Part shown: piece by piece, positions 17,600 to 38,059 of the stretch
Numbering within the stretch: the first letter of the stretch is position 1
How the letters are laid out: the number at the start of each line of letters is the position of its first letter
The notes under the pieces: model-generated
Told to the model about the DNA's origin: nothing
Databases searched by the model: none
Seen by the model: only the letters and a program-made list of their open reading frames with translations
Translations under genes and position numbers: made by a program
Origin: Isoetes taiwanensis
Taxonomy: Eukaryota > Streptophyta > Lycopodiopsida > Isoetales > Isoetaceae
DNA length: 64,000 nucleotides
Assembly: GCA_021234155.1 (NCBI GenBank)
Contig: JAJEKV010000004.1
Span: 30,039,305-30,103,304, forward strand
Direction of reading: 5' to 3'

Positions 17600-19262
17600 T
17601 GTCCTCAATTGAAGTTGAGTATGTTGCGGCATCTTTATCAAGTTGAGAACTTATTTGGTTATGAAGAATGTTGGAATACCTCGATATGATACATGGCATA
17701 AAGAAGTCGAAGACTGGGATGATAAAGATCAAATTGTTTGAGGTCTAATATTATATGCCCTTAAATATTCCATTCTGGTTGATGCCAAAGTATATATGCA
17801 TGCTCATGAAGTATGGGAGTATTTGGATAAGATTTATTTGAAGCGAACAAAACAAGAAGTATTGCATCTACGCAATACCTTGAATAGTTTAAAGTATATA
17901 ATTATTGATTCTATTGATGACTATATTGACAAATTTAAACTACTGGTGGAGCAATTGTCAGCAGCTGGGGTACCGATGGAGAAAGAACAATTACTTGTTA
18001 TGTTATTTGGCATGATGCCTCATGATTTTGATACTATGGTCGCAGTTCTTCTTAACAACGAAGATTGGCCTTTGAAAGTGCATGTTCATGTATGAAAAGT
18101 GAAGCATGAAGTTGTTCCCTTGGAAGAGAGAGCTTTAATTGTTCATACTATTTTTTACGATGATCAAAAGTTGTCTTTTACAGGTTCCAGACATACTAGA
18201 GAGCCTAGTGATAGAGAAAAAGCTTTTTACATTGTTTATAAGAAAATTAAAAAAAGAAGCATATATTCTGAAAATGAATTTTTCTGCTCGACGGGATCTT
18301 AATGACAATTTTTTCAGTACCACGAACCGTGCTTTTTCCTGGGTTAATGGTTATAGTGAACGTGTATTTCCTTTTTGTGGAAAGCACAATAAGGAGTCTA
18401 ATTGTCACTTTCGACAATTGTTTTATAAACATCATGCTCTTAATAACATGGTTTATAAAGCTCAGGCAATGATGGTGGATTCCTCCACTTATTTCATAGT
18501 TGACTCGGGAGCAACTTCACATATGACTTATGCCAAAGAGCATTTGATGCATTATTTTCCTACTCACATTCAAAAATCGGTATATCTTGATGATGATATT
18601 TGTCATAAAGTTGAAGATATTGGAGATTTACGCATGCAGACCTCGTCTGGTGTTTATATCCTTGGGGTTGTTCTCCATGTTCCTGAATTGCAAAGGACAT
18701 TGCTTTCTATTTCTCGTCTTACTAACTTAGGTGTTGCGATGCAGTTTGAAAGGAACATTTATCACTTTATTGTCGACGGTTGTTTACTAGCTACCGCTCA
18801 TAGTATAGGATCGCGGGTTTATCTTTGTTATGGGATCGCGGGTTTGGTCATGTCAGTTTTCCATATCTTGTGGCTATGGAACTCATTTCAATTCAAAGTC
18901 CATGGGATTGTAATACATGTGCTCTTGGAAAATTGCATAGAAGACCATTTTTCAAATCTGAAATTTCAACATCTAATATTCTTGATTTGGTGCATTCTAA
19001 TATTTGTAGTCTATTTTCGTATTCATATGGAGGTGGCCGATATTTTTTTTACTATTGATCGATGATTTTTCTCGATATACATATGTATAGATGTTCTCAA
19101 GGTGTTATCTAAATTCAAAGAGTTCAAGAGAATGGTTGGAACACAAACAGGTAGGCGATTGTAGAGATTGAGGAGTGACAATGGTGGAGAATACAAGTCG
19201 CATGCTTTCATACAATTTTGTGACGAAGAAGATGTTCATCATGAGTTCATTATTCCTCATAT
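17600..19262 (+). pseudogene. Truncated Ty1/copia retrotransposon (gag, protease, start of integrase)
   Basis: Parts of a copia polyprotein appear in order. A gag segment starts near 17,661 and continues at 17,796-18,095, with the UBN2-type pattern EVWEYLDKIY ... LRNTLNSLK ... FGMMPHDFDTM. A degenerate zinc-knuckle-like FPFCGKHNKESNC lies near 18,370. The aspartic protease signature VDSGATSHMT is near 18,500. A pre-integrase zinc segment (CNTCALGKLHRRPFF) is near 18,910, and the integrase-core motif SDNGGEY is near 19,170. Stops and frame changes separate these parts (for example TGA at about 17,737), and the integrase is cut at about 19,262, where the LINE begins. RT and RNase H are absent. 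The element is dead. Confidence 0.85.
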
Positions 19263-19264
19263 AC

Positions 19265-21110
19265 CATCCTTTGAAGCATACCCATCTGCATACCCATCCC
19301 CCCTTTTCATCATTCCATCTCCTCAAGTTACTATCGTCTCCCACGATTTCAAAAAATAAAGTCCAAGGTAGGACTGGTTTGACAGCCTTCTTGCCTAGAG
19401 GGATACAGTGACCAAGAGCTTGTCTAAGAAGGCATAAACCAGGAGAGTCATTCTCACCGTTCAAGAGTCTCCAAATGAACGTTGAAAAAAGATCTTTGCT
19501 CTGCAGTAAGAAGTCTATTATACCCAGACCACCTGCCCATTTTGGAATGATGCACTTCGACCAAGCCACCTTAATCACAACACCTTCCTCAATACCCACC
19601 CATATAAAGTTCCAAACTATTGCAATGAGCTCACGCACTTTGATCTGTGAGGCTAGCAGTAAGGATGCCATATAAACATGGGTACTACTAAGAACTGACT
19701 TGGCCACTGTAATGCGACCCGCAAGAGACAACTTTGCGGTGGACCACCAGAACAAGTGCTTCTCCAAACCCTTAATAATCTCCTCCCATGCAGCTCCCAT
19801 AGTAACGTGAATGCCAACTGGAATCCCCAACAACTTGATGGCATGTCCATGCACAAGTAGTTTCCATGGATAACCATGAACACACGCCGGAGCCGGAGTA
19901 TCCAGTGTCCATAAAGTTGTACATATCTGCCACCCCATAAGGACACCAGAAGCCAATGAAAAATATCTAAGAGTAGTTTGGCAGCTGCAAGATTCTTAGC
20001 ATTAGCAACTAGGAAGAGGAACGTGTCGTCTGCATATTAATTGCAAACCTCTTGTGTGTCATCCTTCATTGCAAGACCATGGAGAAGTCCCTCTGTGGTT
20101 GCAACGGTGAACAACTGCGACAAAGCCTCTGCAACAATTGTGAAAAGCAACGGTGCTAAAGGGCACCCCTGGCAAATACCACGACCGAGTGAGAAGGCAT
20201 CTGACGGCTCACCATGGAATAGAACAGTCGCCCGAGCAGAGACATGCAGCTTCATAATATCTGATGTGAATTGTTCCCCAAAGCCCAGTCTTAGCATACA
20301 TCGACGCATGAATTCCCAGCTGACACTGTCATAAGCCTTTGCAAAATCAAGCTTAAGATATACAACTGGAAAGTTTTGCTTACGTGCCCAATAAATTCCC
20401 TCGTAAGCAGCAACAACATTGTTCAGAATGCATTGTTTTGGAAGAAAACCTGACTGGGTTGTTGAGATGGACTCTGCCAAGATGTCCTTCACCCACTCTG
20501 CAAAAGCCTTGGCGAATATCTTGTATACGAATGACAATAAGGTGATGGGCCGCCAGTCTGAAATAGTCTTAGGATCCTTGACCTTGGGGATGAGTGAGAT
20601 AGCACCTGTGTTTAGAATTCTATCCAAAGCAGTGGAGCGCCGAAAGTCACAGAAAGCATCATACACATCTGACTCCAGCCACTCCCAATAGTCCCAGAAG
20701 AATTCAATTGGCAAACCATCCAAACTTGGGCATTTGCATCTTTTCAGTTCAAAGACTGCTGAACCTAAATCATCAGCTGTCGTAGCCGCCTCTATTGACT
20801 CGCACTGCTCATTAGAGATCTTGGGGGAAATCCTCGACAAAATAGCATCTCGCATTTCTGATTGAAAGGGAAGATGTTTCACAGCGAAAAAAATCTAGAA
20901 GTGGTTATGCAGATGTTCCTTGAGTTCAGTTGGCTCTGTTAGCACTGTACCATCCGGCAAAAGCAATGAGGACATGGTTGACGTCATGCGACCCCTCTTA
21001 GCCGCAGGAAAAGAGAAGCATGTACAATGGTCTCCATCACGAAACCACTGTAGACCTGCCTTCATCTTTGCCTCCTGAATCTGCTCCTCCTCCAATGCTT
21101 GGATCTGTGA
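19265..21110 (-). pseudogene. Truncated LINE (non-LTR retrotransposon) ORF2: RT part
   Basis: Minus-strand frames at 20,895-21,095, 20,037-20,882 and 19,105-19,956 encode successive parts of a plant L1-type ORF2. An RT thumb/palm region contains WRPITLLSFVYKIFAK, the motif LKLDFAKAYDSV, and GICQGCPLAPLLF. The YADD-box region falls at the frame break near 20,035 and is not intact. Further on come the conserved LAGRITVAKSVL and FIWVG segments. Endonuclease is missing because the copy ends at 21,110, right where the inverted repeat of the large element begins. The other end runs into copia at about 19,262. A sister fragment lies at 10.9 kb. Confidence 0.85.
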
Positions 21111-21134
21111 AGTCGTATTTAATTAAAGTGGGAC
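21111..21134 (+). repeat. Left terminal inverted repeat, 24 bp
   Basis: The 24 bases are the exact reverse complement of 33,471-33,494. Matching stops at 21,134, although both ends go on to carry GGGACTC and short T/A-rich motifs in the next 50 bases (left GGGACTC at about 21,148 and 21,168). Confidence 0.9.
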
Positions 21135-21305
21135 AAATCTTGAATTTTGGGACTCGGACTGAAAATGGGACTCACACACCATAAAAGAAATTTCTGAATT
21201 GATTGCTTGAATAGAATTACACATGACACACATAGAATTGGGTTACTTGTTTTCCTCATAAATTTTACAAACCACTAGTTGAGAAAGTTTTCAAACTTCT
21301 CAATA

Positions 21306-23600
21306 TTATGCACCCTCATACAATGATATAGCATGGAGGTTGCTCATGGCCTTGTCCATCTCCTTTCTTGGGATCTTGTGTGTGTTGTCTTTTGCAATGT
21401 GAGAACTTGGATATGACCACACCACACACTCCACCAATTCCCTCCTTTGAGGGTCAGCATAATTTGGCCTCCACTTCTTCTCCCAGCAGTCAGTGTATTG
21501 CTCCTTCAAGTTGCCCTTCTTGTGCCTCCCAATGGGCTCCCAATATTGAATTTGGAATCCAGGACGCTAACTCCTCTCCATCGGGCATAGTGGTGGTCAC
21601 ATCGAGAGAGTGCCACCCCTAACCATATTGGACAGTCCTCATCATCGCCTTACTAGCACAAAGTATCCTTCCTTGATGTCCTCAAAGGGATCCCACTCGG
21701 GAAGATCAAACCACTTCGGCTTTGAGGCCTTACTTCCCACAAACCACTTGGGACCCAAGTGAGCATTCTTAGACGTGCTTGCACCTTGAGAACCCTCCCA
21801 TCTTGACTCGGCAAGAACCCGCCTCTTAGCTCCCTCCCACATGGTCGTTCGGTTTCTAAGCATGTCACAACTTTCTCCCCCAAGACTTGATTAGGGAGTC
21901 CATTTGATTTTTCTTAAGAGTGGGCGTGTGCTTTCCATTTCGAACATCATCCCAAAGCATGCTATGTAATCCTTGATGCCCTTCACCGGTTGGCTAGAGT
22001 CTTTGACTGCCTTGAAGGGAGGTAGTGGTTTTGGCTGCCCTTTAGGAATGAGAACTTCACCAGCAGACCCCTTTGCCACAACTTCGATACCTTGTACAGG
22101 GGCATCCACAACTTGTCACCTGGTCTCCACTTATATTGCATGATTGGTATTCCATCCCTAACCCAAAACTTGAATTGAAGTGGCTTTGTGTGTCCTTGTC
22201 AACCGGTCCTTGCCATCTAGCAAGTATCCTTCTACAAATGATTTCCAATCTGCAACCTCATCCATCAAGAAAGCCATTGGGTTGGGGTCAATGCACTCTC
22301 AAACACATCCATTAGTTCAGGGGAGAGTGGTCACGTTTTCTCTTGAGCTTGGTGGAGAAAGTTCCAAAGAATCCATCTATATCATCATGCATATGCCCAA
22401 CCATCATGAATCCCACTTTCACAACTTTGAATACTCCCACTTCTTTGTCAAGTATGACATTGCCCCAAACATCCATCTATTCTTGTTTTCTTTCCAACAG
22501 TTGTCCAACCCAACACATAGCTCCTCGGGCGCTGATTTCTCAAGTAAGGGGAAATCATCCCAAGTCCTCCTTGATTCACTAGACACCTTGGATGTGAGCT
22601 TTTTATCGCCTTTGGTAACAAAGCGGTTGATCATCCATCAAAGCCTCAAAAATGGGTGCTTGAAGGGGAATACCTCCTCCCTTCTATCGATCCTTTCTCT
22701 AGTGTTCTCAAGCACTTGAAAATAGAGCTCACATGGAAGTTTGGATCATCTCTCCATAGATCAAGCACAAAATGACCATATGTTCCAGTTCCATGACCAT
22801 GTGTTAATACACCCGCCGGACTCACTTTCATCCTCAAAGCGTTTTGACAACGCTTGGGTAAAGGATCTAGCTTTGGCAAGAAAGTCTTGTGTTGGTCCAT
22901 CTTATCATGAATTATACACAAAAATTTGTCCGGGTTTGCATCTCGAAAAATGTTCTCCACTTTGCCAATACAATCGCCTACATGATATTTGGTCCCTTTG
23001 GTGATCTGCAAATTGCTCCCTAATTGCCATTCTTTCTTTCTCTATTGCAGTTGATGCAAGTGTATCCTTGAGTTGAATGCAAGTGTTGCACTTTGAGAAT
23101 GGCATGTGTTGTAGGACACTCACGTCCGAGAAGTGAGTGCTCCATAACTTGCTGAAATGTGATTGAGAAAGAGGCCTACCTCCAGTAGTTTCTAGGATGG
23201 AGTTGACCTCCTTAAGGCACTCCTTTTGGATATAGTGTTGTGGCAACACTCTTTGCACCACTCGCACACCGTGCTCGTTCACCTTCGACTTGTGGGGCAT
23301 AGATTGAGACATGTATCTCACAAAGCTCTCGAAGACTGCAATGGCCTTTAGAGTATTTGCTCTAGGTTTCAAAGTGAGTGCATTACCATGTTGGAACAAA
23401 GTGTGCCCTTTTCTAACCTGCTCCCAAAGATCAGAAATGAAGACTTGCTCACCCCAAGAATCCATCTCAATGCTCTCATACATACCTTCATTCCCCTCAA
23501 TTGATATAGCAAACGATCTGTGTTTTCATCATAGCCGGAATTCCTACACAAGGAGTAAATGAAATTAATCCTATCTTTTTGAAGTCCCAATGTATTGGGA
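21306..23600 (-). pseudogene. RNase H-like (DUF7869-type) transposase, frameshifted
   Basis: Three motifs appear in N-to-C order on the minus strand, in changing frames. IIHDKMDQHKT lies near 22,900, followed by THGHGTGTYGHFVLDLW. LDNCWKENKNR lies near 22,500. VGHMHDDIDGFF lies at about 22,360-22,400. The set D-K-M-D / D-N-C-x3-N-K-N / G-H-x-H-x-D-I-D is what I know from large transposase-like proteins of the DUF7869 kind, where the acidic residues would form an RNase H-fold catalytic centre. Upstream (23,100-23,590) is a Cys-rich helical part (FSKCNTCIQLKD). Downstream segments contain MQYKWRPGDKLWMP (22.1 kb), KPKWFDLPEWDPFEDIKEGY (21.7 kb) and a C-terminal tail (21.3-21.5 kb). At least four frameshifts or stops break it. 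Family assignment is from memory of motifs. Confidence 0.7.
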
Positions 23601-23715
23601 CCTTATCCGCACGAGGTCATCCACATTGTAATGCACCAGGCAATCTAGGTTGCAACACTCTTGTCCCCTAATTGCCTCCAGTTTTCTTTGGTTGGTGCCA
23701 TACTTTCCATCCTTT

Positions 23716-24200
23716 CTAAATATTTGTCACTTCTAGGCCTCTTGGGCACCTTTGGGTGCCTTTTATGAAAGACATAAAGCGTCTCTTCCTTGTGATCAAA
23801 GGATGCTCATCGACCACCAAATCTTCCACATGGCCTTGGGTGGGCCTTGGGGTGTGTAGTTCAGTAGGGCATTCTAGAGTATCACCATTCTTGTGTGTAA
23901 TAAATCTAATTGGCCATCTCAACTGAGCTTGGGACTCCAAAGAGCCCGAAAGCACACAATGCAATCACTAGAGCTTCCACAGGACATGATAGTATCAACT
24001 TCAATAAGAAGCTTCACAATGCCAACTCCAAGATGTTCATCTCCCACCTCTCATCATTCACACTATCAAATGGATCAACTGCAGTTATTATGCCCTCTGC
24101 AAATACCGTCTGGTTGCAAGGGTGCAACAAAAGGCAACCCATCTTCCTCCATTGGAGCCTAGGGCAATGGCCTCCTTTGGAATTCCCTGGCTCCATTTTA
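23716..24200 (-). pseudogene. N-terminal region of the element's minus-strand gene
   Basis: Minus-strand translation in shifting frames gives GIITAVDPFDSVNDERW, then a segment with LGVGIVKLLIEVDTIM and SDCIVCFRALW, then RKRRFMSFIKGTQRCPRG. The pattern of a short beta-rich unit with DP and G-V motifs looks like an N-terminal non-catalytic domain. It lies upstream of and co-directional with the transposase, with no other gene between. I do not recognise a named domain, and the reading frame is interrupted. Confidence 0.4.
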
Positions 24201-24237
24201 CTCATCTCACATGCTCCCTGAATGAAAAAGCTCACAT

Positions 24238-24545
24238 TAAAACCATATAGCCCCAAACACCACAAATATGACCATATGAACCATATAAAACCATACAAAC
24301 CACACTCATATACAAACCATACAACCATATAAAACCATACAAACCACACTCATATACAAACCATATACAAACCATACAACCATATTAACTAAAATCATAT
24401 AACCATATTAAAGCATACAACCACACTCATTCTAAACCATATGTAAACATTGTAACCATTGAAACCATATTAAATACAACCATTGAAACCATATTAAATA
24501 CAACCATTGAAACCTTATTAAATACATAAGATAACATATATAAAC
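24238..24545. repeat. Minisatellite rich in AACCATA/ACCATACA units
   Basis: About 300 bp consists of degenerate repeats of AACCATA(CA)n, including a longer unit ACCATATAAAACCATACAAA followed by CCACACTCATATACA seen twice (about 24,270 and 24,327), then three copies of AACCATTGAAACCATATTAA with variations. It sits between the minus-strand transposase gene and the plus-strand locus. The minus-strand frame across it (Trp/Phe/Tyr-rich) is an artefact of the repeat. Confidence 0.85.
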
Positions 24546-24577
24546 ATATAACCTGGCCTTTCATATTTTGTCATGGA

Positions 24578-24660
24578 CACGTGGCGCCTCTTCAGAGGCT
24601 GAAACCGTGGCCACGTCAGCAATCCACTGCCACGTCATGGAGGGCATGGCCCACACGTGA
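24578..24660. promoter_or_regulatory. Four ACGT-core (G-box-like) motifs in a divergent intergenic region
   Basis: CACGTG occurs at 24,578-24,583 and 24,654-24,659, and CCACGTCA occurs at about 24,611 and 24,630: four ACGT cores in about 80 bp. ACGT-core elements bind plant bZIP and bHLH factors. They lie between the start of the minus-strand transposase gene and the first plus-strand exon at 24,849, followed by a CT-rich leader-like tract (24,720-24,790). This layout suggests a shared or plus-strand promoter. The transcriptional role is inferred. Confidence 0.5.
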
Positions 24661-24848
24661 CAATGGTTTTTATTATTGCACTTTTACGAGGTTCGAGGGT
24701 GCAGCCAGAATTAACTGCACCCTCTTCCTCTCCCCCCGACCATTCTTCCTCCCCTGTTTTCTCTGATCTCTCTTCCTCCCCTGTTTCCTTAGGCGCCCGC
24801 TTTACCGATCGGTGATCGATCGAACCGGCGATTCCAAATATAAATCTT

Positions 24849-25329
24849 ATGACAGCAGCTTGGTCGACGGATCAGGACGCTTCCAGCGCCGAAGTTCTCG
24901 CGCAGATTCATTGTTCGAGCGGGCGTTACCGCCTGAGAAGAAAGTGAGGCCCTTTTTAGTGCTGCTTTTTAGTTTTCTGTAAGTCTTTTAGTGCATTTTT
25001 TCTTATATTCTGTTGTTAGAGGCTCTTATTAATCCCTGATACAATTTACAGCCCGACAAATCCTTATTCACGCTTTGTCAACGACTATACCCACATGGAA
25101 GCGAACTCGGAAGCCTCCTCCTCATCCAGCAAATCTTCCAGGTATGTTTTTGTAATATCATACCCTTTTTTAATCTCATTTTTCTGTACTGTTCTCCACT
25201 GTTCTCTGTACTGTTCTCCACTGTTCTCTGTTTTCTCATTAATCTCATTAATCTTTGTATTGTTTTCTGTTTTTTGTTATCTTTTTCTTGCTTGTGGTTG
25301 AATTGAATACATTGTACAGGCACAAGTGA
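24849..25329 (+). CDS. Possible small three-exon gene at the start of the cargo arm
   Basis: An ATG at 24,849 opens MTAAWSTDQDASSAEV and runs to AGAAGAAA|GTGAGG (about 24,947). After an acceptor TTTACAG near 25,050, a second segment joins in frame (PTNPYSRFVNDYTHMEANSE, then a serine-rich end) and reaches CCAG|GTATGT near 25,140. A third segment after TTGTACAG at about 25,319 adds two residues and a stop, unless it is spliced again at GTGAGA. The spliced product would be about 65 residues. Both introns are short (about 100 and 180 bp) and AT-rich with good borders. No domain is recognised. This could instead be the 5' part of a longer transcript feeding the downstream exons. Confidence 0.35.
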
Positions 25330-25799
25330 GAATAGTGGTTAGAGTAGTAGCAAGCAACCGAGATAGAAATCATCGAGACCGGTGTTAGGAAGTAAGATAT
25401 TGCGAGCATTAACAAAAATAACTAGGAATGTCTTTCTCCCAAAGAAGAATTCGAATAGGAATTGCTTCACGTAATCTCCATTTCTAACTCACAAAGAAAT
25501 CCACTGCAGAGACATGCATAAGGGAGTGGCGAGTTGAGAATACTTCCAGCTTGCCAACGGTCAAGGAAGTACTGAGGCCTTCTTCTCGACTCATGAAGTC
25601 GAGAACTTCTCGACTTCATTGGCGCAGAAGAGGGAGTGTACACTCTAGGCCTGCTGGCGGGTTGAGGGATTCTCGACTTCGCGATTCGATTGCACAGACT
25701 ACCCAATGTCTTCACATTCTTTAGAACCTGCTGCAGCCTTCTCGACTTCGTGGAGTCGAGAATGTGATACCGCCAATGGCTCTTTGTGCGCCGCGGTGC

Positions 25800-26945
25800 C
25801 TCCACCCACCGAAGCCACTCTCCTTGAACCATGCTCATCGAATATTGCGAAGAGGACGGGCTCCGACCGGGTGGAGGGCCTCGGCGACTAACCACTCGAG
25901 GTGCTGGCCTTTCTCGACTCGTGAGTCGAGAAAAACGAACTCTAGTGCACTCTAGAGCTGGCTGCAGGCAGATCTCAACCACTCTCCTTCTATCTTCCCT
26001 CGGACATTGCGTAAGGGAAGTGGTTTTGACTGCCCTGGAGCCAACTCTTAGCAACCCAATTCTCAGTGTGGTCGGTGGCCTCTACCCAATCAAAGACCGT
26101 CTCCTTGAACCATCTTCGGTATTGCGAAGGGGATGGGCTCTCGATTGGGTGGAGGCCTCGGCTAACCACCTGAGTTCTTTGGCTGCTTTCACTCGTGAGT
26201 CGAAAAACGCACTCTAGTGCACTCTAGAGCTGGCCTGCAGACAGTCTTAAACACTCTCCTTCTATCTTCCTCGGACATTGCGAAGGGAAGTGTTTTTGAC
26301 TGTCTGCAGGCCAACTCTTAGCAACCCAATTCTCCTGTGTGTGGTCGCAGTGGCCTCTACCCAATCAAAGACCGTCTCCTTGAACCTTCTTCGTCGAATA
26401 TTGCGAAGGGATGGGCTACGATTGGGTGGAGGCCTCTACAACTAACCACGGGGGAAACCACGAGTTTCTTTGGATGCATTCTCGGCTCATGAGTGGGAAT
26501 GCCTTACCCAACCGCACTCCATGTGTACTAACCTGAGTTGGATGGCCAAGGCATTCGACTTGCGAAGTCGAAAGAATGTAGACAGAAGCCAAGCATTCTC
26601 GACTTCGCAAGTCGAGAATCCCTTAGCAGCCAATTCTCACAGTAATGCGGTAGCGGTGGCCTCGACCGGTCGAAGTCACTCTCCTTGAACCATCTTCGTC
26701 GAATATTGCGAAGGGAGGGGCTCCTGACCGGGTGGAGGCCTCTACAACTAACCACGTGGAAACCACGGGAAGCCAAGGCTTGCATTCTCTACAAGTCTTG
26801 CACTTTCTATTCTCCCCGTTTTTAGTCCCAAGTGCCTCTAGCCTGTCCTGAGCCACTCTCCTTTGAACCATCTTCCTCGAATATTGCGAAGAGGAGTGGT
26901 TCTGACGAGTGGGAGGCCCCTCCGACTAACTACAAGAGGATGCAT
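25800..26945. repeat. Five diverged tandem copies, about 180-300 bp unit
   Basis: A core beginning CTCTCCTTGAACCATCTTCG, then TCGAATATTGCGAAG, GGGTGGAGGCCTC and ACTAACCAC recurs at about 25,815, 26,103, 26,369, 26,672 and 26,856. The central CTTCGTCGAATATTGCGAAG is itself an imperfect palindrome. Members of the CTCGACTCGCGAGTCGAG family lie between copies. The array is inside the inverted-repeat element and noncoding. Confidence 0.85.
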
Positions 26946-27270
26946 TTGAACCGCATCTCACGGGCCTTAGTCCTAGCCTGATCTATGTACAACATTCCAA
27001 GTAAACAGTCCATGAAAAACACACCTAAAACGGGCTGTTTCTTTACCCCGATCCAATGTTTCCTTGCCGAGCATCTCTCAACCTAGAGAGTAAATCATCT
27101 CTCGAAGCTGAAAAATGCCGGACAAGGAAACATCAAAATCCGTCGAGCTTATCGCCAGCCCATTATTTAAACACATACGGCATGTTCTACAAGCGAAATA
27201 ACATAGGCATCTCTGAAACTCACCTCTTCACGCGGTAATTCCTTGGGGCCATCAGATCACGGATCCCGCG
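26946..27270. other. Noncoding stretch with a long imperfect hairpin
   Basis: AATGTTTCCTTGCCGAGCAT at about 27,055 is mirrored by GCCGGACAAGGAAACAT at about 27,117, giving an imperfect inverted repeat with a loop of about 45 bp. No gene is evident. Confidence 0.5.
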
Positions 27271-27273
27271 GCC

Positions 27274-27486
27274 TCACCCGTAGTCTTTGCTTCTTACATT
27301 TGGTCTCTTCAAGAGTGTATTCGCATCTAATACTTGTATCATCACGATTCTCGCGTATCCCCTTTCCATGGCGCCCTTGATGTAGAGTTCCCGTGTCGGC
27401 AGCTCCTCTCCGCTTCCTACCTTAGCTCCGTGCTCATCGATCAAATCAAGCGCTTGCAATAGGGCGCTGGTCGGGGAAAAACACAC
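27274..27486 (-). pseudogene. Unrecognised minus-strand coding-like segment
   Basis: A 70-codon minus-strand frame reads ALDLIDEHGAKVGSGEELPT, then YIKGAMERG, then ARIVMIQVLDANTLLKRPN. Its composition is protein-like and differs from the repeat-derived frames around it. Its D-x2-G ... V-G-S-G-E ... G-x-A-R-I-V pattern loosely resembles the segment upstream of the transposase at 24.1 kb (VDPFD ... LGVGIVK), so it may be another copy of that N-terminal module. There are no clear splice borders or partner exons. Function is not known. Confidence 0.3.
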
Positions 27487-28055
27487 ATATGCAAAGCGCC
27501 GTTAGCGCCTTACCGCGTCGCGGCGCCATTCCGGAAGTCGCTAACGATCGATGATCCCCTCCACCTCGAAGTTCCCCAATGCAGCGGGAAGATAAACTAC
27601 GCCCACTCACTTAGTCCCTTGATGTGATTAAATTTGAAATAGTGTTTGGGCGGGGCTAAAGCCGACCGTCTTTGTACCCTTTTTAGCCCGCTTTTTTCAT
27701 AAATGATTGCATGTCCTTAACTTCAAATTAAAGAACACGCCTCGATCTTTTTACATGCAGTCCTAAAAACTCACAACGCTGGAGGAAACTTAATTTACTG
27801 AGGGGGTCCTAAGAGGATGAGAGGGCATCTGAGACATGACTCCGCCCAAGAAGCGGTGGGCCGAGGGGATGCTTCTGCCAAATGGGCAAAGAAGAAGAGG
27901 AAAACACCCCGGGTGAGCTCGAGGTTTTTCTTTTGTCGGAATACCTTAATCGATCCATCCTTTCTTCTTGCAAAGATTCACCTCTGACTCACCGGTGATC
28001 ACCGGCGAACTCCATTCTTCGTCATCGAGGGACCGAGACGAGCTTCTTGAAACAA

Positions 28056-28230
28056 ATGGCAGATTCTTGGTGGTATGTCGAGGTATCGACAAGTGGGAAG
28101 GAGAAAGATCTGTTTCTACACCAAAGGGACAAGAAGAGCTCCGGAGACAAGTACAAGAAAATCGGTGTTGTGCTCTCCGCCTCTGCCCGATTCAAGCATT
28201 TAACACTACATGTCGAGGACTGCCCGGAAG
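28056..28230 (+). CDS. Putative first coding exon of the plus-strand cargo gene
   Basis: An ATG at 28,056 (CAAATGG) opens MADSWWYVEVSTSGKEKD, continues with a basic stretch (HQRDKKSSGDKYKK) and IGVVLSASARFKHLTLHVED, and reaches a donor-like GAAGA|GTAAGTTC at about 28,231. An earlier TTG at 28,047 is in frame, but the ATG is the natural start. The composition is coding-like. The next coding segment begins around 28,340. No named domain is recognised. It lies at the head of a run of co-directional exons ending near 32.2 kb. Confidence 0.45.
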
Positions 28231-28339
28231 AGTAAGTTCTATCGCACCAAAAATTAGCAGTTTCAAATTATTCTCACTCTTCCATGAGCAAGGCTAAGGG
28301 CACCAAAAAAGCCGGGCGCTTTTAAATTGTCGGAACCTT

Positions 28340-29112
28340 GGGTGGAAGGATCCGAAAGGGATGAAGGAGGCCTAACCCTAACATCCAAGGAGCTTGGTAT
28401 GGAGATTTCGAGTCGGGGAAAAACTGTTCAATACGGGGAGCTTCACTTCTACCAGTCTTTGAAGGCTCTACAACACTCTGGCGGTGGGGGATGAAGTTGT
28501 GGTTCATACACAAAAAAGTCCACCAAAAAACAAAGATGGGGATGATGACACCACACGGGAGGAATCAGATGACGAAGGAGACGAAGATATGGTCGACTCC
28601 CCAAACCTCGATCCAGATGATCAGATCAGGATTTCACAGAGAGGGGCACAGAAAATGGAGCGTCTAGCTCAGTATTATCCGTTGGGAATATCACACAAGC
28701 CGCTTCTTTGGACATTAGGCGGTGAAGGTTTGCAATCGGAGATGCCGTCTTGTTCAACCACGAATTTAATCCAAAGACACATGCCGGAGATTCTCGAACG
28801 ATGGTGCGACATCCTTGCTGCGATCCAATGCCTCGGGATGTCATACCTTTTAGCGGTCGGCAATTGAGTTGTTCAGCTGGAAGTCTGAGGAAGATCTGAA
28901 GGGAAAAGAAGTCCGGTTCTGGGTTGTAGACGGTCAGCATTCAGTGAGGGCGGCTCAAGTATTGCAGACGGAGAAGGAGGTGCCGCAAAGGATCAAGGAT
29001 AGATATGCCAAGCGAGAGTGCAGAGTTCTTTCGGCGGAGACGCCAGCAACCGAACTGGCCAGCATTAGCCACTGCCAGAACACAATAGCAGCGAGTGCCA
29101 GCTACGTAAGGT
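28340..29112 (+). pseudogene. ParB/sulfiredoxin-like domain segment with a DGQH motif, frameshifted
   Basis: The first part (28,360-28,485) reads TSKELGMEISSRGKTVQYGE, then LHFYQSLKALQHSGGG. A run of five G at about 28,485 breaks the frame; skipping one G joins it to DEVVVHTQK and a highly acidic linker (28,530-28,620). A helical part follows (QKMERLAQYY, IQRHMPEILERW). A second shift near 28,865 leads to GKEVRFWVVDGQHSVRAAQV and further on AETPATELASISHCQNT. The WVVDGQHSVRAA motif matches the D-G-x-H-R core by which ParB/Srx-fold nucleases and CTPases are recognised, although the following Arg is offset. The segment ends at AG|GTAAATA near 29,112. Assignment rests on this one motif. Confidence 0.45.
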
Positions 29113-29612
29113 AAATAACTCTCTGAATCTTTCCATTCTCGACTCGCGAGTCGAGAAAGCCCTGCCATCCTAACATTTCTTGGACATCATCGGGGTTTCT
29201 CGACTTCGAAATGAAGCCGTGAGTAACCTGAGAAAAATCAAAGGATGTGGAGCTTTCGACTCGCGAGTCGAAAAACCCTTAGCCAAGAAAAAAGAAATTA
29301 GACATTCAATGGGACTCTCGACTCGCGAGTCGAGAAAGCCCTGCCATCCTAACATTTGCCGATTATCACTGGGGTTTCTCGACTCGCGAGTCGAGAAAGC
29401 CAGGGTAATGCAGAAAATCAAAGGATCTAGCTTTCTCGACTCGCGAAATCGAAAGCCGGTAATATCTGAAAAATCAAAGGATGAGAGCTTTCGACTCGTG
29501 AAGTCGAAAAAACCAGAGAAGTAAAAAGAAAATTAGACATTCAAGGGACTTTCTCGACTTCAAGAGTCGAAAAAACCCGGCTACTATTTACCGCTTATTC
29601 CTGTGTTTGTAG
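29113..29612 (+). other. Predicted intron packed with palindromes and short tandem repeats
   Basis: Between the donor AG|GTAAATA (about 29,112) and the acceptor TGTTTGTAG (29,612) lie eight palindromes of the CTCGACTCGCGAGTCGAG family spaced about 55-65 bp apart. They are separated by recurrent pieces such as AAGCCCTGCCATCCTAACAT, AAAATCAAAGGAT and AAATTAGACATTCAA. The intron thus consists almost wholly of a palindrome-bearing tandem array. Confidence 0.6.
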
Positions 29613-30385
29613 ATACTTTCATGCTCGACATTGGTACATTGTCCTAATGCAGCCCTTATCCCCGACCAGATCATACACGCTGAGCAACAATGGAAAGCAT
29701 TGGGTTGTCCTCGGCCCTAAAAGGAAACAGGGCTCCCTCGGATAAGTGGAAGACCTTTGAGAAACTATGCAGATATGTTCTGCTGGAGGGACAGGAAGAT
29801 GACGAGGGAGAGGAAGAAGAGGAGAAGAAGAAGAGAACACCAAGGAAAGGCAGGGAGTCTCTCTCAGACCAATATGACCTCATTCTTAGCACTGAGGCGG
29901 TCTGGGAGAAATGGACTGACATATGGGCTCAATGGACAAGAGGCAAGCTGAAGGACAGCAATGGAGAATTTCCAAGCAGGCCGGACCCCAAGTTGTTTGA
30001 CAAGCAGTTCATGAAGAGGATACAGGGCCTCACGGACAAAGAAACGCTTGACCTACAAGGCAAAATCTTGGAGGGAACAATCCTGCTGAGGAAGACCAGG
30101 AGTTCTAAATTGCAGGACGCAAAGGATTATGCCACAGTCCTAAAGCGACAGCGTGCGTTAGAAGAAGGCATCACGGAGTTCTGCAACGTTGCATCTAATG
30201 AATACCATGATTTTGATTATTACAAGGAAAAGGCTGCCCTTGATGAGGAAGACATGAAGGAATTGAACCGTCTATGTCAACCCTACATCAACACCAAGCT
30301 GAAGCATAGCGTCAAAACCCTTCCTTTCCCCTCGAACGTGCTATGGCAATTCTCGAAAGGAAGCTTGATTTCGGGTGGTCCCATT
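29613..30385 (+). pseudogene. Coding-like segment of the cargo gene, unrecognised
   Basis: A 232-codon frame from 29,690 contains KWKTFEKLCRYVLLEGQ, a stretch rich in Glu and Lys (EDDEGEEEEEKKKRTPRKG), then EAVWEKWTDIWAQWTRG, FDKQFMKRIQGLTDKETLDL and a helical C-terminal half. Upstream, in another frame, QIIHAEQQWKALG looks like the proper start of the same protein, so a frameshift is likely near 29,700. The segment is helical and charged with no catalytic motif I recognise. It sits between the ParB-like and FCP1-like parts on the same strand and is probably one long protein or adjacent exons. Confidence 0.4.
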
Positions 30386-30389
30386 TAAA

Positions 30390-31233
30390 GGCGCACGATA
30401 GCTCCCCCATTTCTGGTTACTTTGGGACACAAGGGATTTGGTGGTGCAGAACCGCACTGACCCGTGGCACTATTTGCCATCAATATGATCAAGACCCCAC
30501 CCTTTTTATGACAAAGCCGACATAGAGCAAAGTTGGTACAAGACGTGTCACGGACATGACCGACCGGATACTTTCGCCCTTGTCTTTTGCATGCCGGCAA
30601 TCAAACAACCGCTTTGTCTCCCAATGGGCACCGATATTAACTTCACCAACAAGATCATGCACTCCATATACGAACTTGATCATGAGTGCGGACTTGGCTT
30701 GCCGGAAGGCACCAAGCTTTGCCAACATAGTTTTGGTTTTGATTTCAAGATCGGCGGTCGACTGGATAAGTGGTGGTCTAGCGAGCATCATTATCTCGAC
30801 AAGTTCATGATCTCTCAAGAGCGATGGAACCCCGGAAGGGGGGCAGGTTTATGGAGGATGTTCCATCGATGGACAAGGTCAGCAAAGATGGTGCGACCGG
30901 TCCTATACATAGAATTCCTATTCGCCAAGAGTTATCAAGTACTTCATAACCAGCTTGGTCGAGGAAGATCAAATTGTATGCGAAAGTGGTACATGAATGG
31001 CCTGTTTCTCTCGGGGGGCTATCTTTGTTTGGAATGAAACCTATATCCGTGGTTGGAAATAAGGACATGGTTGAAACCATTCAGTCATACACGGATCTGC
31101 TTCATGAGCATTTCAAGGGGAGGAAGACAAATGGAAGCAAAGAAAGACGACGAGGGGCGAGGGAGACAAACCCGACGGAGACGAGGATGTCGAAGGTTTG
31201 GACCGAAATCTTTGCCGAAAAACATTATTGAAA
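30390..31233 (+). pseudogene. Second coding-like segment of the cargo gene, unrecognised
   Basis: After a frame change at about 30,385, one frame (to about 31,035) encodes WYKTCHGHDRPDTFALVFCM, FTNKIMHSIYELDHECG, HSFGFDFKIGGRLDKWW and RWNPGRG. The end of the segment continues in a different frame as VVHEWPVSLGGLSLFG and ISVVGNKDMVETIQSYTDLL, with a shift near 30,965. It ends at GAG|GTGAGT (about 31,236). Clusters of Cys, His, Trp and Gly suggest a compact domain, possibly metal-binding (C-H-G-H, H-E-C-G), but I cannot name it. Confidence 0.4.
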
Positions 31234-31236
31234 ACC

Positions 31237-31400
31237 CGAGATTGAGGTGAGTTTACTTTGCTCTATCGGTGTTTCTCGACTTCGCGAGTCGAAAAACTCG
31301 CTTTCCTTTCAATACCTTTTTTTTTCATTCTCGACTCGCGAAGTCGAAAAAAACTCGTTCCTTTCGACGGATGTCATCATTTCGTGGAATTCGGTCAACG
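31237..31400 (+). other. Predicted intron with two palindromes
   Basis: A strong donor, GAG|GTGAGTTTAC, lies near 31,236. The following AT/T-rich stretch holds two members of the palindrome family (31,270 and 31,330) separated by about 60 bp. The acceptor is uncertain, somewhere before about 31,420. Confidence 0.45.
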
Positions 31401-31560
31401 ACTCCGGATCATTGTCAATGGATTCCAACGGTTCACGTCGCGAGGGAATGAGAATGAAAATCCGAGAGCAAGACACCGCCACGGCCGGAAAAGAACCTGA
31501 AAAGATAATGATCCCGCATTTGGATCCCGATGAACCGGAAATATGGTCGAGCCAAACTCC

Positions 31561-32224
31561 AATCGGGATCCACTTGGTCCCACCAAGCTTGTAATATTTG
31601 ACGTCAATGGAGTATTAGGCTGCAGTATATACCACGACAAAAGACGTCCCCGAGATTAACACCTCGCAGATCCCAATGAAAAACAGAGCATAAAATAGTG
31701 TATCCGAGGCCTAGAGCTAAGGAAATTATTGGTGGTGCCCAGCACGGATTCGGCGGGGCATATGGTCTTATATGGCAAAGAAAAATATTGTCAATGTTCT
31801 TGGTGTTCTCGGCATTTCAGTTTTGAAGTTCAAGTTCGTTTGGGGAAACGAAAGGGTCGAGCATGTGAAGGACCTCGATCCAGCCATCACAAAGGGGAAG
31901 CCTATAATGGTGAAAAGGTCGGATGGGGTTTATGAGCTATTCCAGGACTATGGCAAACACAACACGCTGATCATAGACGACTCATACACAAGTGCTATCA
32001 TAACGCCGCAAAATACAATCATTGCTAAGCCATATCGACCAAAGAATATGAGACGGATAGGTGGTTGTCCTTCGGACTCTGTCTGCCTTGGCGGAATCCC
32101 TCTTCGCCATTCTTGTCGCCCGATGTGCTTACGAACTATCCGAGCCTCACGGAACCCGATCCAGAGAGCAAGCCCGATCATGAAAGCTATGGACGACAAA
32201 TACTTTGGTGAACAAGAAGAGTGA
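31561..32224 (+). pseudogene. FCP1/SCP-like HAD phosphatase domain, frameshifted
   Basis: Two frames give the two halves of an FCP1-type HAD domain. The first has LVIFDVNGVLG (about 31,588), the nucleophile motif, with Asp at position 1 but Asn in place of the second Asp. After stops near 31,655, another frame resumes at about 31,760: GIWSYMAKKNIVNVLGVLG, KFKFVWGNERV, then NTLIIDDSYTSAI (motif IV, D-D retained) and TIIAKPY. Such domains remove phosphate from serine/threonine, as in RNA polymerase II CTD phosphatases. A D-x-N nucleophile site is common in an uncharacterised plant subfamily, from memory. The frame ends at 32,224. The upstream part (31,470-31,560, acidic, LDPDEPEIW) is in yet another frame. 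Broken in this copy. Confidence 0.7.
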
Positions 32225-32309
32225 CCCCGCTTTCAGATAGTCAAATTGTGTGAATATTGTAATCGAACGTGAACACATGTATTGACCATTTTGTAATGAA
32301 TATACTTGT

Positions 32310-32590
32310 ATATTGAGTTTTCGATGCCTTTCTCGACTCACGAGTCGAGAAAGGCATGCTTGTCGTGTTGATGAAATGCTTGTACAATCTATTATGATAA
32401 TGCTTGTACATTGGGTTTCCTGGGCCTTTCTCGACTTCGCGAAATCGAAAAGGCATGCTGATTGTCTCGTTGACAAAAGCATTTGTTTGCTTCCGTGTGT
32501 GATTGGATGCAACCATATTCTAATGAGAATGGTTGTACTTTGACTTTTATGGGCCTTTCTCGACTCGCGAGTCGAGAAAGACACTACTTC
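32310..32590. repeat. Tandem array of palindrome-bearing units, about 100-125 bp
   Basis: Three palindromes (32,329; 32,427; 32,555) each lie in a similar context. A stretch with TTGTACATTGGGTTTCCTGG or a near relative precedes GGCCTTTCTCGACT, and ATGCTTGT or TTGGATGCA follows. It resembles the array in the 29.1-29.6 kb intron but with a longer unit. Confidence 0.7.
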
Positions 32591-32718
32591 CCACGTCATT
32601 GGATGCAGTTGTATGGAATGAATGTTCTCCGTTGTAATTTGATTTCAACATTCTTTTCTTCGCTTTGACTAATGGCACCGTAATTGTTAATCATACTCTC
32701 CTTGCTCCGGTGGTTTAG

Positions 32719-33075
32719 GCACGATCCCACACCAAAGACAGATCCCGCCGTGCATCACGAGACCGCTCCAGCGACCATGCATCCAGCTCAAGGCCAAAGA
32801 AATACCGCTCGCACGCATCCCTGGCCACGCTACACTCTTGCCCTGCCTTTGGGACAAGGTTGCTCGCTAATTCGAGAGGTTGCTCGCTACACCCCGGGAA
32901 TAAAGAACAAAGAAGAACAAAGAGAAAGTCCAGGAAGCTCAAGGCATATTGCAAGCATTGCGTAACATCCACTGAGGTTGGGGAAGGAGCATATTCGATG
33001 AAAGGTCAGCGGGAGGCGAGTGGAGAAGTCGGGTGGACAAAGTCGGCCGGTAGCTCCAGAGGCACCTCCACGTGA
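32719..33075 (+). CDS. Putative Arg/Ser-rich basic exon near the right end of the element
   Basis: After an acceptor-like TGGTTTAG (32,718) a frame stays open for about 118 codons: ARSHTKDRSRRASRDRSSDH, SSSRPKKYRSHASLATLHSC, a cysteine pair (YCKHC at about 32,947) and a glycine/serine-rich tail to a stop at about 33,073. The beginning has the RS/RD dipeptide character of RNA-binding or splicing-related tails. No globular domain is seen. A likely polyadenylation-type A/T-rich region follows (33,235-33,300). It could be the final exon of the cargo transcript or a separate small gene. Confidence 0.35.
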   Translation, partial: ARSHTKDRSRRASRDRSSDHASSSRPKKYRSHASLATLHSCPAFGTRLLANSRGCSLHPGNKEQRRTKRKSRKLKAYCKHCVTSTEVGEGAYSMKGQREASGEVGWTKSAGSSRGTST

Positions 33076-33470
33076 GGCATTCCACACTCTTCGGTTGCCC
33101 CCAAGGCTTACAGACGGCATGAAGAAGCGCCCACAAGTTAATCCCCTAAGGTGGACCACCTACCAAGATGATGTAATCAGTAGTGACAAAGAAGACCGCC
33201 ATGGTCTCTGCGTCCATGTAAAATACATTGTATCTGTTCAATTTATTAATAAAAATTCTTTTTCAACTACATCTTTGGTTTCAAACTTTAATGAATTTCC
33301 TTTGTTTCAGTTGCATTGTTTTTGTTCTCGACTCGCGAACCTGGGAAAACTGCAGCACAGCTCGCATTCCGAGTTTTATTCAAAAATTCGAATTAAGGAT
33401 AGTTTTCGGGTCGGGGTGCTACTTTTTATGTAAATTAACCGGGTTCCGAAAAAAAATGGGAATGGAATGA

Positions 33471-33494
33471 GTCCCACTTTAATTAAATACGACT
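33471..33494 (-). repeat. Right terminal inverted repeat, 24 bp
   Basis: GTCCCACTTTAATTAAATAC plus GACT is the exact reverse complement of the left repeat at 21,111-21,134. It lies about 130 bp past the last partial palindrome (33,325-33,341) of the family confined to this element. Confidence 0.9.
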
Positions 33495-34511: not shown

Positions 34512-35153
34512 TTGCAAGTTGGAGAATGTTCTGTCACTAAAAGCAGTATATTGGAGGATCAGCCTAGTGAAGCTCTTGATAGTATGATCCACGATCCAAG
34601 TGGTCAAATGGAAGCAGACGAATATGATGATGGCAACTCTAAGGTTGCAGCAGTAGAGGGATCTCGAAAGGGACCCTTGATACTCCAAAGCAATGCTTTG
34701 AATCTATCCCATGTGGTCTCTACCCTCCTTTGTCCAGACATTGACCTATCATCACCAATATCGATGTTGATACTGACCACCCAGTCAGCATTGACTACCG
34801 CCAAGTCAGCATTGACAATCACCCAATCAGCTTTGGTTACTGCTCATGTGGACACCTTTACCTCAGACATTGACACCTTACCACAGAATATGATGCAGCA
34901 TGGAGTAGCAGACTCTGATACAGAATTTGACAAGCACGTGGCAGCAACAATAGAAGTGCTACTTGATAGATTCTATGTCTGCAGTCCGAACTCTTCTCTC
35001 TGGGATAACTGTTTTGTTACAAGTGATGAAGGGAATATAATTTCTGATCACCAACCACAATTCTTGTGCACAAGGCAATTGACTCAAATTCCAAGAGATG
35101 GAAATATTCCCTACAAGTTCAATTGTGCTCTTCTTGAAATGAATCATTTGTGA
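34512..35153 (+). pseudogene. LINE ORF1-like protein fused to the last part of endonuclease
   Basis: The 213-codon frame starts with a low-complexity acidic part and a threonine/serine/alanine repeat (TTQSALTTAKSALTITQSAL). It then switches at about codon 150 to LDRFYVCSP ... IISDHQPQFL, the C-terminal end of an APE-type endonuclease with its conserved S-D-H. Everything between ORF1 and the endonuclease tail is missing, including the E, N and D-x-N motifs, so an internal deletion joined the two. The frame ends with a stop at 35,151-35,153, overlapping the RT frame by a one-base shift. Confidence 0.75.
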
Positions 35154-38059
35154 ATGATTTCAAGGCTTTTTATCTTGATCTTCAATCTAATTGCAGTCAT
35201 CAATCTATGAAAAGCTTTTATGCTAAGATCAAGAAAGCCAAAAGCTGGATTAAAGAGTGGTCAAGGAAGAAGCACCTCACAAGATTAAAGGAGAAAGAGG
35301 ATTTGTTAACTCATATGAGAAACATAAGATCCCTGCTGCAGGATGATCCACACAACCTTAATCTGCATGTGGGTGAAGAATTAGTAGAAAATTATCTCAA
35401 GAGTATAGAGGAAATTGAAGCTAAAAGCTCAACAATCAAATGCAAAGTTAAATTTAACAAAGAAATGGATTGTGGCAGCTCAAGGTTCTTTTTTAAGGTA
35501 GCCAAAGCTAGGCTGCTTAGAAACTCTATTTCTGAAATTAGAACTGATGCTGGTCTTTGCTTGGATGATCCTAAGCTTGTCAGATCCTTCTTTCAGGATA
35601 ACTATGCCTCTCTCTTTTCCAAAATTGATTCTCAAGATATTGACTTCCCAAGAGAAAAGATTTTTCTTGAGTTGATGGATAAGATTATCCCGAATTCTAT
35701 TGACACTATGGATGACTCTTTTATTATGCCTCCTACTGAGCATGAAATTCTTAAGGTCTTGAGATCTTTTGGTAAATGTAAATCCCCTGGACCTGATGGC
35801 ATTCCTAGTGAATTCTACATTCATTTCTGGGATCTTCTTAAAGATGATGTCATCTCAATGGTGAGAGGCTTCTGGGATAATAACCACCTTCATTCATCTA
35901 TCTCTGCTGGCTTCATTGCTCTTATACCTAAGATAGATAATCCATCTGCCTTTTCGGATTGGAGGCCTATATCTCTCACTAATACCTCATATAAAATCTG
36001 TGCCAAAGTCATTGCCAACAGAATTAAAGAGTATCTCCAGAAAAATATCTCTCATTATCAATCTGCCTTCCTGTCCAAGAGGTTTATCTTAGACAATTAT
36101 ATTTCAGCCATGGAGGGTCTTCATTGGAATAAAGTTTCCAATCAAAATTGTGTGCTCCTTAAGCTTGACTTCAAGAGAGCCTTTGACACTGTTAGGTGGG
36201 ATTTTCTAGACATTGCTCTCACTAAGTTTGGCTTTCATCCTAAACTTAAGCTTTTAATTCATGGCTTGAATATTCACTCAAATTCTGCTGTCATTGTTAA
36301 TGGTTCTCCCTCTCAATTCTTTCCTCTTTCTCGGGGTGTGAGGCAAGGATGCCCCCTTGCTCCTTACCTCTTCCTAATTGTGGCTGAGATGCTTACAAGG
36401 GCAGTAATTCATTCAAAAAATCTGGGGGAGATTAGAGGTCTTCAAATGCCAAATAGGGAGGATAGTCTTGCCATTTCTCAATATGCTGATGACACATTTG
36501 CCTTCCTTGATGCTGATCTTTCTAATATTGAAGCTTTCTTGGAAATTATCAAACAATTTTCAGCTGCCTCTGGTGTAAATCTAAATCTGGCCAAATCTGT
36601 TATCATTGGAGATAATATTCAGACAAACTTTGCTGATATCAAGGTCCTTAATTGCAACCAAGCTTCTACTCTGTTGGGAATGCCTTTATCTCTGAATCCC
36701 TCTTTGAAAAGTCTATGGCAACCTATTGTTGATAGAATTAAGAAAAAGTTGAATCATTTTAGAGGGGGCCTATCTTTTGCAGGTAGGACGATTATTGCTA
36801 ATTCAGTCCTTGCTAGCTCCCACATTTACTTTTCTTCTGTCCTAGTGGCTCCTAAAGCTATCTATCAGGAAATTGAGAAACTTATAAGGAGATTCATATG
36901 GAAGGGGTCTCACTTAGTAGGGTGGAAGTATGTTGCAAAGCCCAAGAAATATGGTGGTCTCGGCTGTAAGGATCTGCACTTGCAAGCTTGTGCCCTAGCT
37001 GGGAAATATGTGTGGAATTCTCTGGTGTCTAATTCTAGTCCTGCTTCTCAATTTGTCAAATATTGGCTTCAGAACTCTCAAGTGGATGGTCACCCTTCCT
37101 TAAGTCATATCTTGCCTGACTCTTGTTTCAATAATCTTCACCCTGGGCCTAATACTTCCCCTCTCATGAGGAATATAATTATGGCTTGGAATAAAGTTCA
37201 AACTTGCTATGATTATGCTGCTCTCAATGATCTCAATCTTCAAATGTCTATTTTCTGGAATCCTATTCTTAAAGATCATGTAAATAGTGTTTTGGCCTTG
37301 AGGCACCCAAGAATTTATAAAAAATGGAATGATCATGGTTTCAGGCTGCTGAGTGACCTTTATGTAGATGGCAAATTCATTTCCTGGACAGCCTTTAAGA
37401 GAATTCTGCAAGGTACTTCAAGTGACAGAAAGATATATTATCATATCAGATCCACTCTTCCTCACCTTTGGCTTAACAATGTGGTGCCTAAAGCTACTAA
37501 CTGGAATTTGGATGGCAAATGTCATTACAAGGTAAGTAAAGTCTATTCAATCATTAGTGATACTGCTACTCCATCAAAAGCTTCCTCTAAATGGTCTATC
37601 TCTGAGGAGGATAGCAGGATTCTGTTTAATGAAGTGTGGCACTCTTATTGTTTCCCTAAAATTAACTTCTTTATCTGGCTTCTGGCAAACAAGAGTATCT
37701 CTACTTTACAAATGGTCTCCAGAAGATATGAGAACATCTCCCCAAATTGCCAGCTTGCTTGCAACATGGAAGAGAGTGCTGAGCACATTTTCCTTTGTCC
37801 AAAGCTTAATCCTTTCTGGTCTTGGTTTAATGAGAGACTGGGATTCCTCTTTCCCATGAAAGTTAATGGCAATCTTTTATCCTATATCCAAAACAATTGT
37901 GCCTTTGCCAATACTATTATGTTCATTGCTTTATGGAATATTTGGAAAGCAAGAAATAGAGTTGTGTATGGTAAAAAGAACTTCTCTATTTTTTGGATTA
38001 AGGTGCATTTCAGCTTCGACATTGAATCTACTCTTGACTCACAAAAGGAAATTGGCTGA
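35150..38059 (+). CDS. LINE reverse transcriptase with zf-RVT, long open frame
   Basis: The 969-codon frame encodes a plant L1-type ORF2 from just after the endonuclease. RT fingers and palm contain GKCKSPGPDGIPSEFY (about codon 205), DWRPISLTNTSYKICAKV, LKLDFKRAFDTVRWDF and RGVRQGCPLAPYLFL. The catalytic YADDTFAFL box is near codon 445, and AGRTIIANSVL and FIWKG follow. The C-terminus has a zf-RVT zinc segment (PKINFFIWLLANKSI ... C-x-E-S-A-E-H-I-F-L-C). No ATG begins it; GTG at 35,150 is only the frame edge, so it is translated as a continuation of the endonuclease part via a lost or shifted base at 35,150. The RT looks intact and recent. Cis retrotransposition would fail without endonuclease. 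Confidence 0.85.
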   Translation: MNDFKAFYLDLQSNCSHQSMKSFYAKIKKAKSWIKEWSRKKHLTRLKEKEDLLTHMRNIRSLLQDDPHNLNLHVGEELVENYLKSIEEIEAKSSTIKCKVKFNKEMDCGSSRFFFKVAKARLLRNSISEIRTDAGLCLDDPKLVRSFFQDNYASLFSKIDSQDIDFPREKIFLELMDKIIPNSIDTMDDSFIMPPTEHEILKVLRSFGKCKSPGPDGIPSEFYIHFWDLLKDDVISMVRGFWDNNHLHSSISAGFIALIPKIDNPSAFSDWRPISLTNTSYKICAKVIANRIKEYLQKNISHYQSAFLSKRFILDNYISAMEGLHWNKVSNQNCVLLKLDFKRAFDTVRWDFLDIALTKFGFHPKLKLLIHGLNIHSNSAVIVNGSPSQFFPLSRGVRQGCPLAPYLFLIVAEMLTRAVIHSKNLGEIRGLQMPNREDSLAISQYADDTFAFLDADLSNIEAFLEIIKQFSAASGVNLNLAKSVIIGDNIQTNFADIKVLNCNQASTLLGMPLSLNPSLKSLWQPIVDRIKKKLNHFRGGLSFAGRTIIANSVLASSHIYFSSVLVAPKAIYQEIEKLIRRFIWKGSHLVGWKYVAKPKKYGGLGCKDLHLQACALAGKYVWNSLVSNSSPASQFVKYWLQNSQVDGHPSLSHILPDSCFNNLHPGPNTSPLMRNIIMAWNKVQTCYDYAALNDLNLQMSIFWNPILKDHVNSVLALRHPRIYKKWNDHGFRLLSDLYVDGKFISWTAFKRILQGTSSDRKIYYHIRSTLPHLWLNNVVPKATNWNLDGKCHYKVSKVYSIISDTATPSKASSKWSISEEDSRILFNEVWHSYCFPKINFFIWLLANKSISTLQMVSRRYENISPNCQLACNMEESAEHIFLCPKLNPFWSWFNERLGFLFPMKVNGNLLSYIQNNCAFANTIMFIALWNIWKARNRVVYGKKNFSIFWIKVHFSFDIESTLDSQKEIG

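Follow-up and report, generated by a model that had tools for sequence, protein, structure and literature searches.

A DUF7869 transposon family with a probable NIF-like accessory gene in the quillwort Isoetes taiwanensis

An exact 24-bp inverted repeat pair (21111-21134 and 33471-33494) encloses a minus-strand transposase-like gene and a plus-strand multi-exon locus in a 64,000-nucleotide stretch of Isoetes taiwanensis DNA, hereafter the window. The question is whether these parts form one mobile unit and whether the plus-strand genes are passengers or working parts of it. Given the base composition, such a 24-bp repeat pair is expected by chance about 1.6e-5 times per window. A preliminary description of the locus had taken the perfect 24-bp repeats as the ends of a transposon; the exact pair is present in the window, but comparison with other copies showed that the true terminal repeat is 25 bp long (AAGTCGTATTTAATTAAAGTGGGAC) and starts at 21110.

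The further copies that the same description suggested looking for proved to be numerous. We searched 1,658,258,908 bases in 1110 contigs and found the exact 25-mer end 2,217 times (1102 forward and 1115 reverse), while the reversed control gave 0. Among the first 100 ends listed there were 34 convergent neighbours, 30 of which were spaced 3.5-27 kb apart: 12 at 3.5-5.8 kb, 14 at 11-14.8 kb and 4 at 23.5-26.7 kb, with the last 4 of the 34 lying farther apart. Paired ends thus bound elements of three size classes, about 12 kb, about 4 kb and 23-27 kb, and terminal inverted repeats recur in many copies, as in TIR DNA transposons. The features of the window copy are as follows.

21110..21134, plus strand: left terminal inverted repeat, 25 bp, identical in other copies
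21310..24280 (approximate), minus strand: transposase gene, DUF7869, possibly with a D..D(39-42)D motif; its frame is interrupted in the window copy
25586..26620, no strand: first palindrome cluster, TCGACTCGCGAGTCGA and variants
27920..29110 (approximate), plus strand: ParB-like exon (by motif only), placed by alignment to the older copy C907, in which a 397-aa open frame corresponds to it
29139..29575, no strand: second palindrome cluster, probably intronic
29684..31283, plus strand: middle exons with no known domain; 234-aa and 182-aa open frames in the window copy
31276..31350, no strand: third palindrome cluster
31520..32225 (approximate), plus strand: NIF/FCP1-like exon (HAD phosphatase fold), partly frame-broken in the window copy
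32333..32580, no strand: palindrome cluster in the right subterminal region; the 4-kb relatives have a similar array close to their right end
32691..33208 (approximate), plus strand: Arg/Ser-rich exon, recognised by eye only
33471..33494, minus strand: right terminal inverted repeat with 24 of its 25 bp, the terminal T being gone by comparison with other copies

Target duplications and empty sites, which the preliminary description had also proposed to look for, were both found. All 15 complete insertions that we read (ten paired copies, three 4-kb elements, one 25-kb element and an older copy, C907) carry a 4-bp target duplication, which is CTTT in C907. The insertion at C523 sits in LINE-like sequence, and its flanks, when joined with one duplication, matched seven paralogs over their full length (1-394) without interruption at 90-97% identity, whereas the occupied site breaks that alignment at 199/195. 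In the one C523 empty site that was read, CTCTAAGAGTC, AAGA is present once. A constant-length duplication of 4 bp and empty sites at C523 are what a TIR DNA transposon leaves, and together with the many copies they bear out the proposal of a single mobile unit.

The minus-strand gene was rightly described as transposase-like, as the consensus of six copies matched Pfam DUF7869 with E=1e-37. Its frame is broken in the window copy, probably through assembly errors. In the older C907 copy (L082 plus L083, 11,766 bp), which aligns collinearly with the window copy, an 830-aa open frame on the minus strand matched DUF7869 with E=8.4e-44 (Pfam), followed by one stop and a further 155 aa in the same frame. 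Genome-wide, at least 138 transposase matches were found. When L100 was paired with the others, leaving out L101, in which the frame is partly shifted, dN/dS was 0.08-0.12 (about 0.1) at dS of about 0.7-1.0, and by this measure the transposase is under strong purifying selection. The segments IIHDKMDQ, QLDNCWKENKNR and GHTHDDID are conserved, and the conserved D residues within them suggest a DDD/E catalytic core. A PDB search with the transposase returned nothing beyond one chance antibody match, exact peptide patterns had no match to viral relatives in IMG/VR, and our literature search for DUF7869 found no paper.

On the plus strand, the preliminary description had recognised two enzyme-like domains, and one of them was upheld. 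A 229-aa frame of C907 contains a NIF phosphatase-like domain (E=2.9e-10, Pfam), in which motif I reads DVNG (DxNG) in place of DxDx; hence the protein may not be an active phosphatase. The other, ParB-like assignment found no profile behind it: the 397-aa frame of C907 contains WVVDGQHSVRAAQVL, which recalls ParB-type proteins, but no ParB/Srx match was obtained in Pfam (E up to 0.1), NCBIfam or PDB, and the resemblance is one of motif only. In C907 the middle exons correspond to a 288-aa frame, which contains no known domain.

Both of these exons are repeated across the genome, the ParB-like one with at least 118 matches in at least 115 scored places and the NIF one with at least 150 matches. 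Among the matches listed, the order of the modules is transposase on the minus strand, ParB-like exon on the plus strand mostly 4.8-6.3 kb away, and then the NIF exon on the plus strand, which lies 2.5-4.5 kb beyond the ParB-like exon in 34 pairs; 26 of the 28 nearby transposase-NIF pairs listed have the expected orientation. Across 120 pairs from 16 stop-free copies, dN/dS of the NIF exon had a median of 0.39 (range 0.22-2.43), a value somewhat lowered by our picking the better, stop-free matches, and despite this choice of copies it points to constraint.

The palindromes TCGACT..AGTCGA had been described as private to the unit. Within the window this holds, with 17 of 17 inside the unit, which spans 19% of the window, but similar arrays are also present in the 4-kb elements. 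The three 4-kb elements that we read (L076-L078) have in common a left end of at least 66 bp and a right end of about 1.2 kb with the palindrome array, and their interiors differ from one another. In one of the three, on C53, the interior holds aspartyl-protease fragments (TAXi_N, E=3.4e-17), and pieces of it match separate loci on C1061 and C1018 at 96-100% identity. With shared ends and captured host gene fragments, the C53 element is, by its structure, a Pack-TYPE element; no domain or source was recognised for the interiors of the other two. True captured host DNA was found in the related C53 element, which lies outside the window. The 25-kb element (L079-L081, C22:66691-91675) is the 12-kb transposon enlarged by two inserts, one of about 7.8 kb and the other of about 4.7 kb.

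A puzzling aspect of the family is its interior variation. The interiors of young copies appear to differ by 6-12%, mostly at CHG and CG sites, and positions 21420-33370 of the window give an example of such concentrated differences. In seven 12-kb copies of the same family, the first 310 bases or so are identical and the ends nearly identical, while each pairing with one reference copy showed 312-497 substitutions and 364-504 indel events. Against the older copy, the transposase frame of young copies has 12-18 indels/kb, 51-74% of which lie near CG or CHG, versus 21% of positions there. One reading is that this variation is biological, arising by targeted hypermutation or by break repair at methylated CHG/CG sites, and the differences do fall in discrete spots with several alleles per spot, only 12% of CAG/CTG sites, 2% of CCAG and 31% of CG being fully invariant among copies versus 87% of CATG. 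However, the reads behind the published assembly (1658.30 Mb) were nanopore R9.4.1 with base calling by Guppy 3.1 flip-flop; miniasm served for assembly, and polishing was done by racon and by pilon with 2x150 Illumina reads (PMC8566536). Such short reads cannot be placed inside identical repeats. Moreover, copies are clean at their ends, close to unique flanking sequence, and five other, older copies have only 3-9 indels/kb in the transposase frame. We therefore rejected interior hypermutation, which we regard as very improbable, in favour of assembly error. Given the sequencing method, the best explanation of the differences is that nanopore reads were miscalled at methylated cytosines in repeats that short reads cannot polish, and consequently frames, divergence and age taken from the window copy are not trustworthy. 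Other young repeats of the assembly may be similarly affected, and this case suggests that apparent fast divergence and broken genes inside its young repeats can stem from nanopore errors at methylated sites.

That the inverted repeat of the unit arose by chance, or links two elements that have nothing to do with each other, might be argued from the window copy, which has no second target duplication and has lost the terminal T of its right end. Yet the unit recurs with identical ends and 4-bp duplications, so that the paired copies already refute this idea, and a region at C916, 97% similar, has the two flanks of the window copy side by side (TGTGCCAAAATATC, where the window has TGTG, the element and GGAATATC). 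We give the accidental repeat practically no weight. Because its flanks adjoin at C916, the window copy is an insertion, and its right junction has since been damaged or was misassembled. The plus-strand genes, for their part, could be host cargo, captured passively in the manner of Pack-TYPE elements and of no use to the transposon, as one 4-kb relative clearly holds host gene fragments and NIF-like domains are common in host proteins. Against this, the same modules stand in a fixed order in many copies and the NIF exons retain their frame under the constraint described above, which makes passive capture rather unlikely. Since module order is fixed and the median dN/dS of the NIF exon is 0.39, a maintained accessory gene is favoured over passive cargo. 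The locus does travel with the transposase in a fixed gene order, as the preliminary description proposed, but its term "cargo" is probably wrong, because the NIF-like exon is constrained and looks like an accessory gene of the element.

We consider that the locus belongs to a recently active TIR transposon family with a DUF7869 transposase and a maintained NIF-like accessory locus, in which shorter elements with the same ends move captured DNA, and we put the probability of this reading at about 0.8. The ends, the 4-bp duplication and the empty sites are observed, and around them we infer a cut-and-paste cycle in which the minus-strand protein, acting as a DDE-type transposase, would recognise the 25-bp ends, excise the element and insert it with a 4-bp stagger. 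The NIF/FCP1-like accessory locus moves with the element, is kept by purifying selection and would help it, perhaps by aiding transcription or counteracting silencing, and the palindromes TCGACTCGCGAGTCGA are probably bound by the transposase or by the accessory protein. Given the shared ends and duplication length, the same transposase probably moves the captured host DNA of the shorter elements. More tentatively, and with some doubt on our part, the NIF/ParB-like locus could be an obligatory second component of the DUF7869 lineage that binds the palindromes and counteracts silencing or licenses transposition, an arrangement undescribed in the literature that we searched. The family is a recent and abundant DNA transposon of a lycophyte, and few transposons have been described from that lineage. 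To these it adds DUF7869 elements that make 4-bp duplications, an accessory gene that is phosphatase-like and maintained, and gene capture of the Pack-TYPE kind.

The element resembles TIR cut-and-paste transposons in its terminal inverted repeats, constant-length duplication, dispersed copies and putative RNase-H/DDE-type transposase, and differs from them in having an accessory NIF-like locus. Target duplications are usually 8 bp in hAT, about 9 bp in MULE, TA in Tc1/mariner and 3 bp in PIF/Harbinger, and a duplication of 4 bp fits none of these. Ginger elements are set apart by a retroviral-type integrase domain, and Pfam gives DUF7869 only. The Sola superfamily makes 4-bp target duplications, as the quillwort element does, and on this likeness in duplication length Sola membership is a lead only. 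The autonomous plant elements MuDR and VANDAL, like the quillwort element, combine a transposase with a second maintained gene, but the quillwort accessory gene carries a NIF/FCP1-like domain. The 4-kb elements are like Pack-TYPE elements in that they share ends and differ in their interiors, one of them with host gene fragments; however, Pack-TYPE elements have been described for MULE, CACTA, hAT, PIF and Mariner types (PMC8903248), and a DUF7869 family that makes 4-bp duplications is not among these.

Outside the unit, two further open frames were recognised by eye in the window: an intact one of 973 aa at 35138-38059, resembling a LINE reverse transcriptase, and one at 18139-19065 with VDSGATSHMT, like a Copia-type retrotransposon polyprotein. 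The first 1000 bases of the window (1-1000) have a GC content of 66%, versus roughly 40% in the remaining window.
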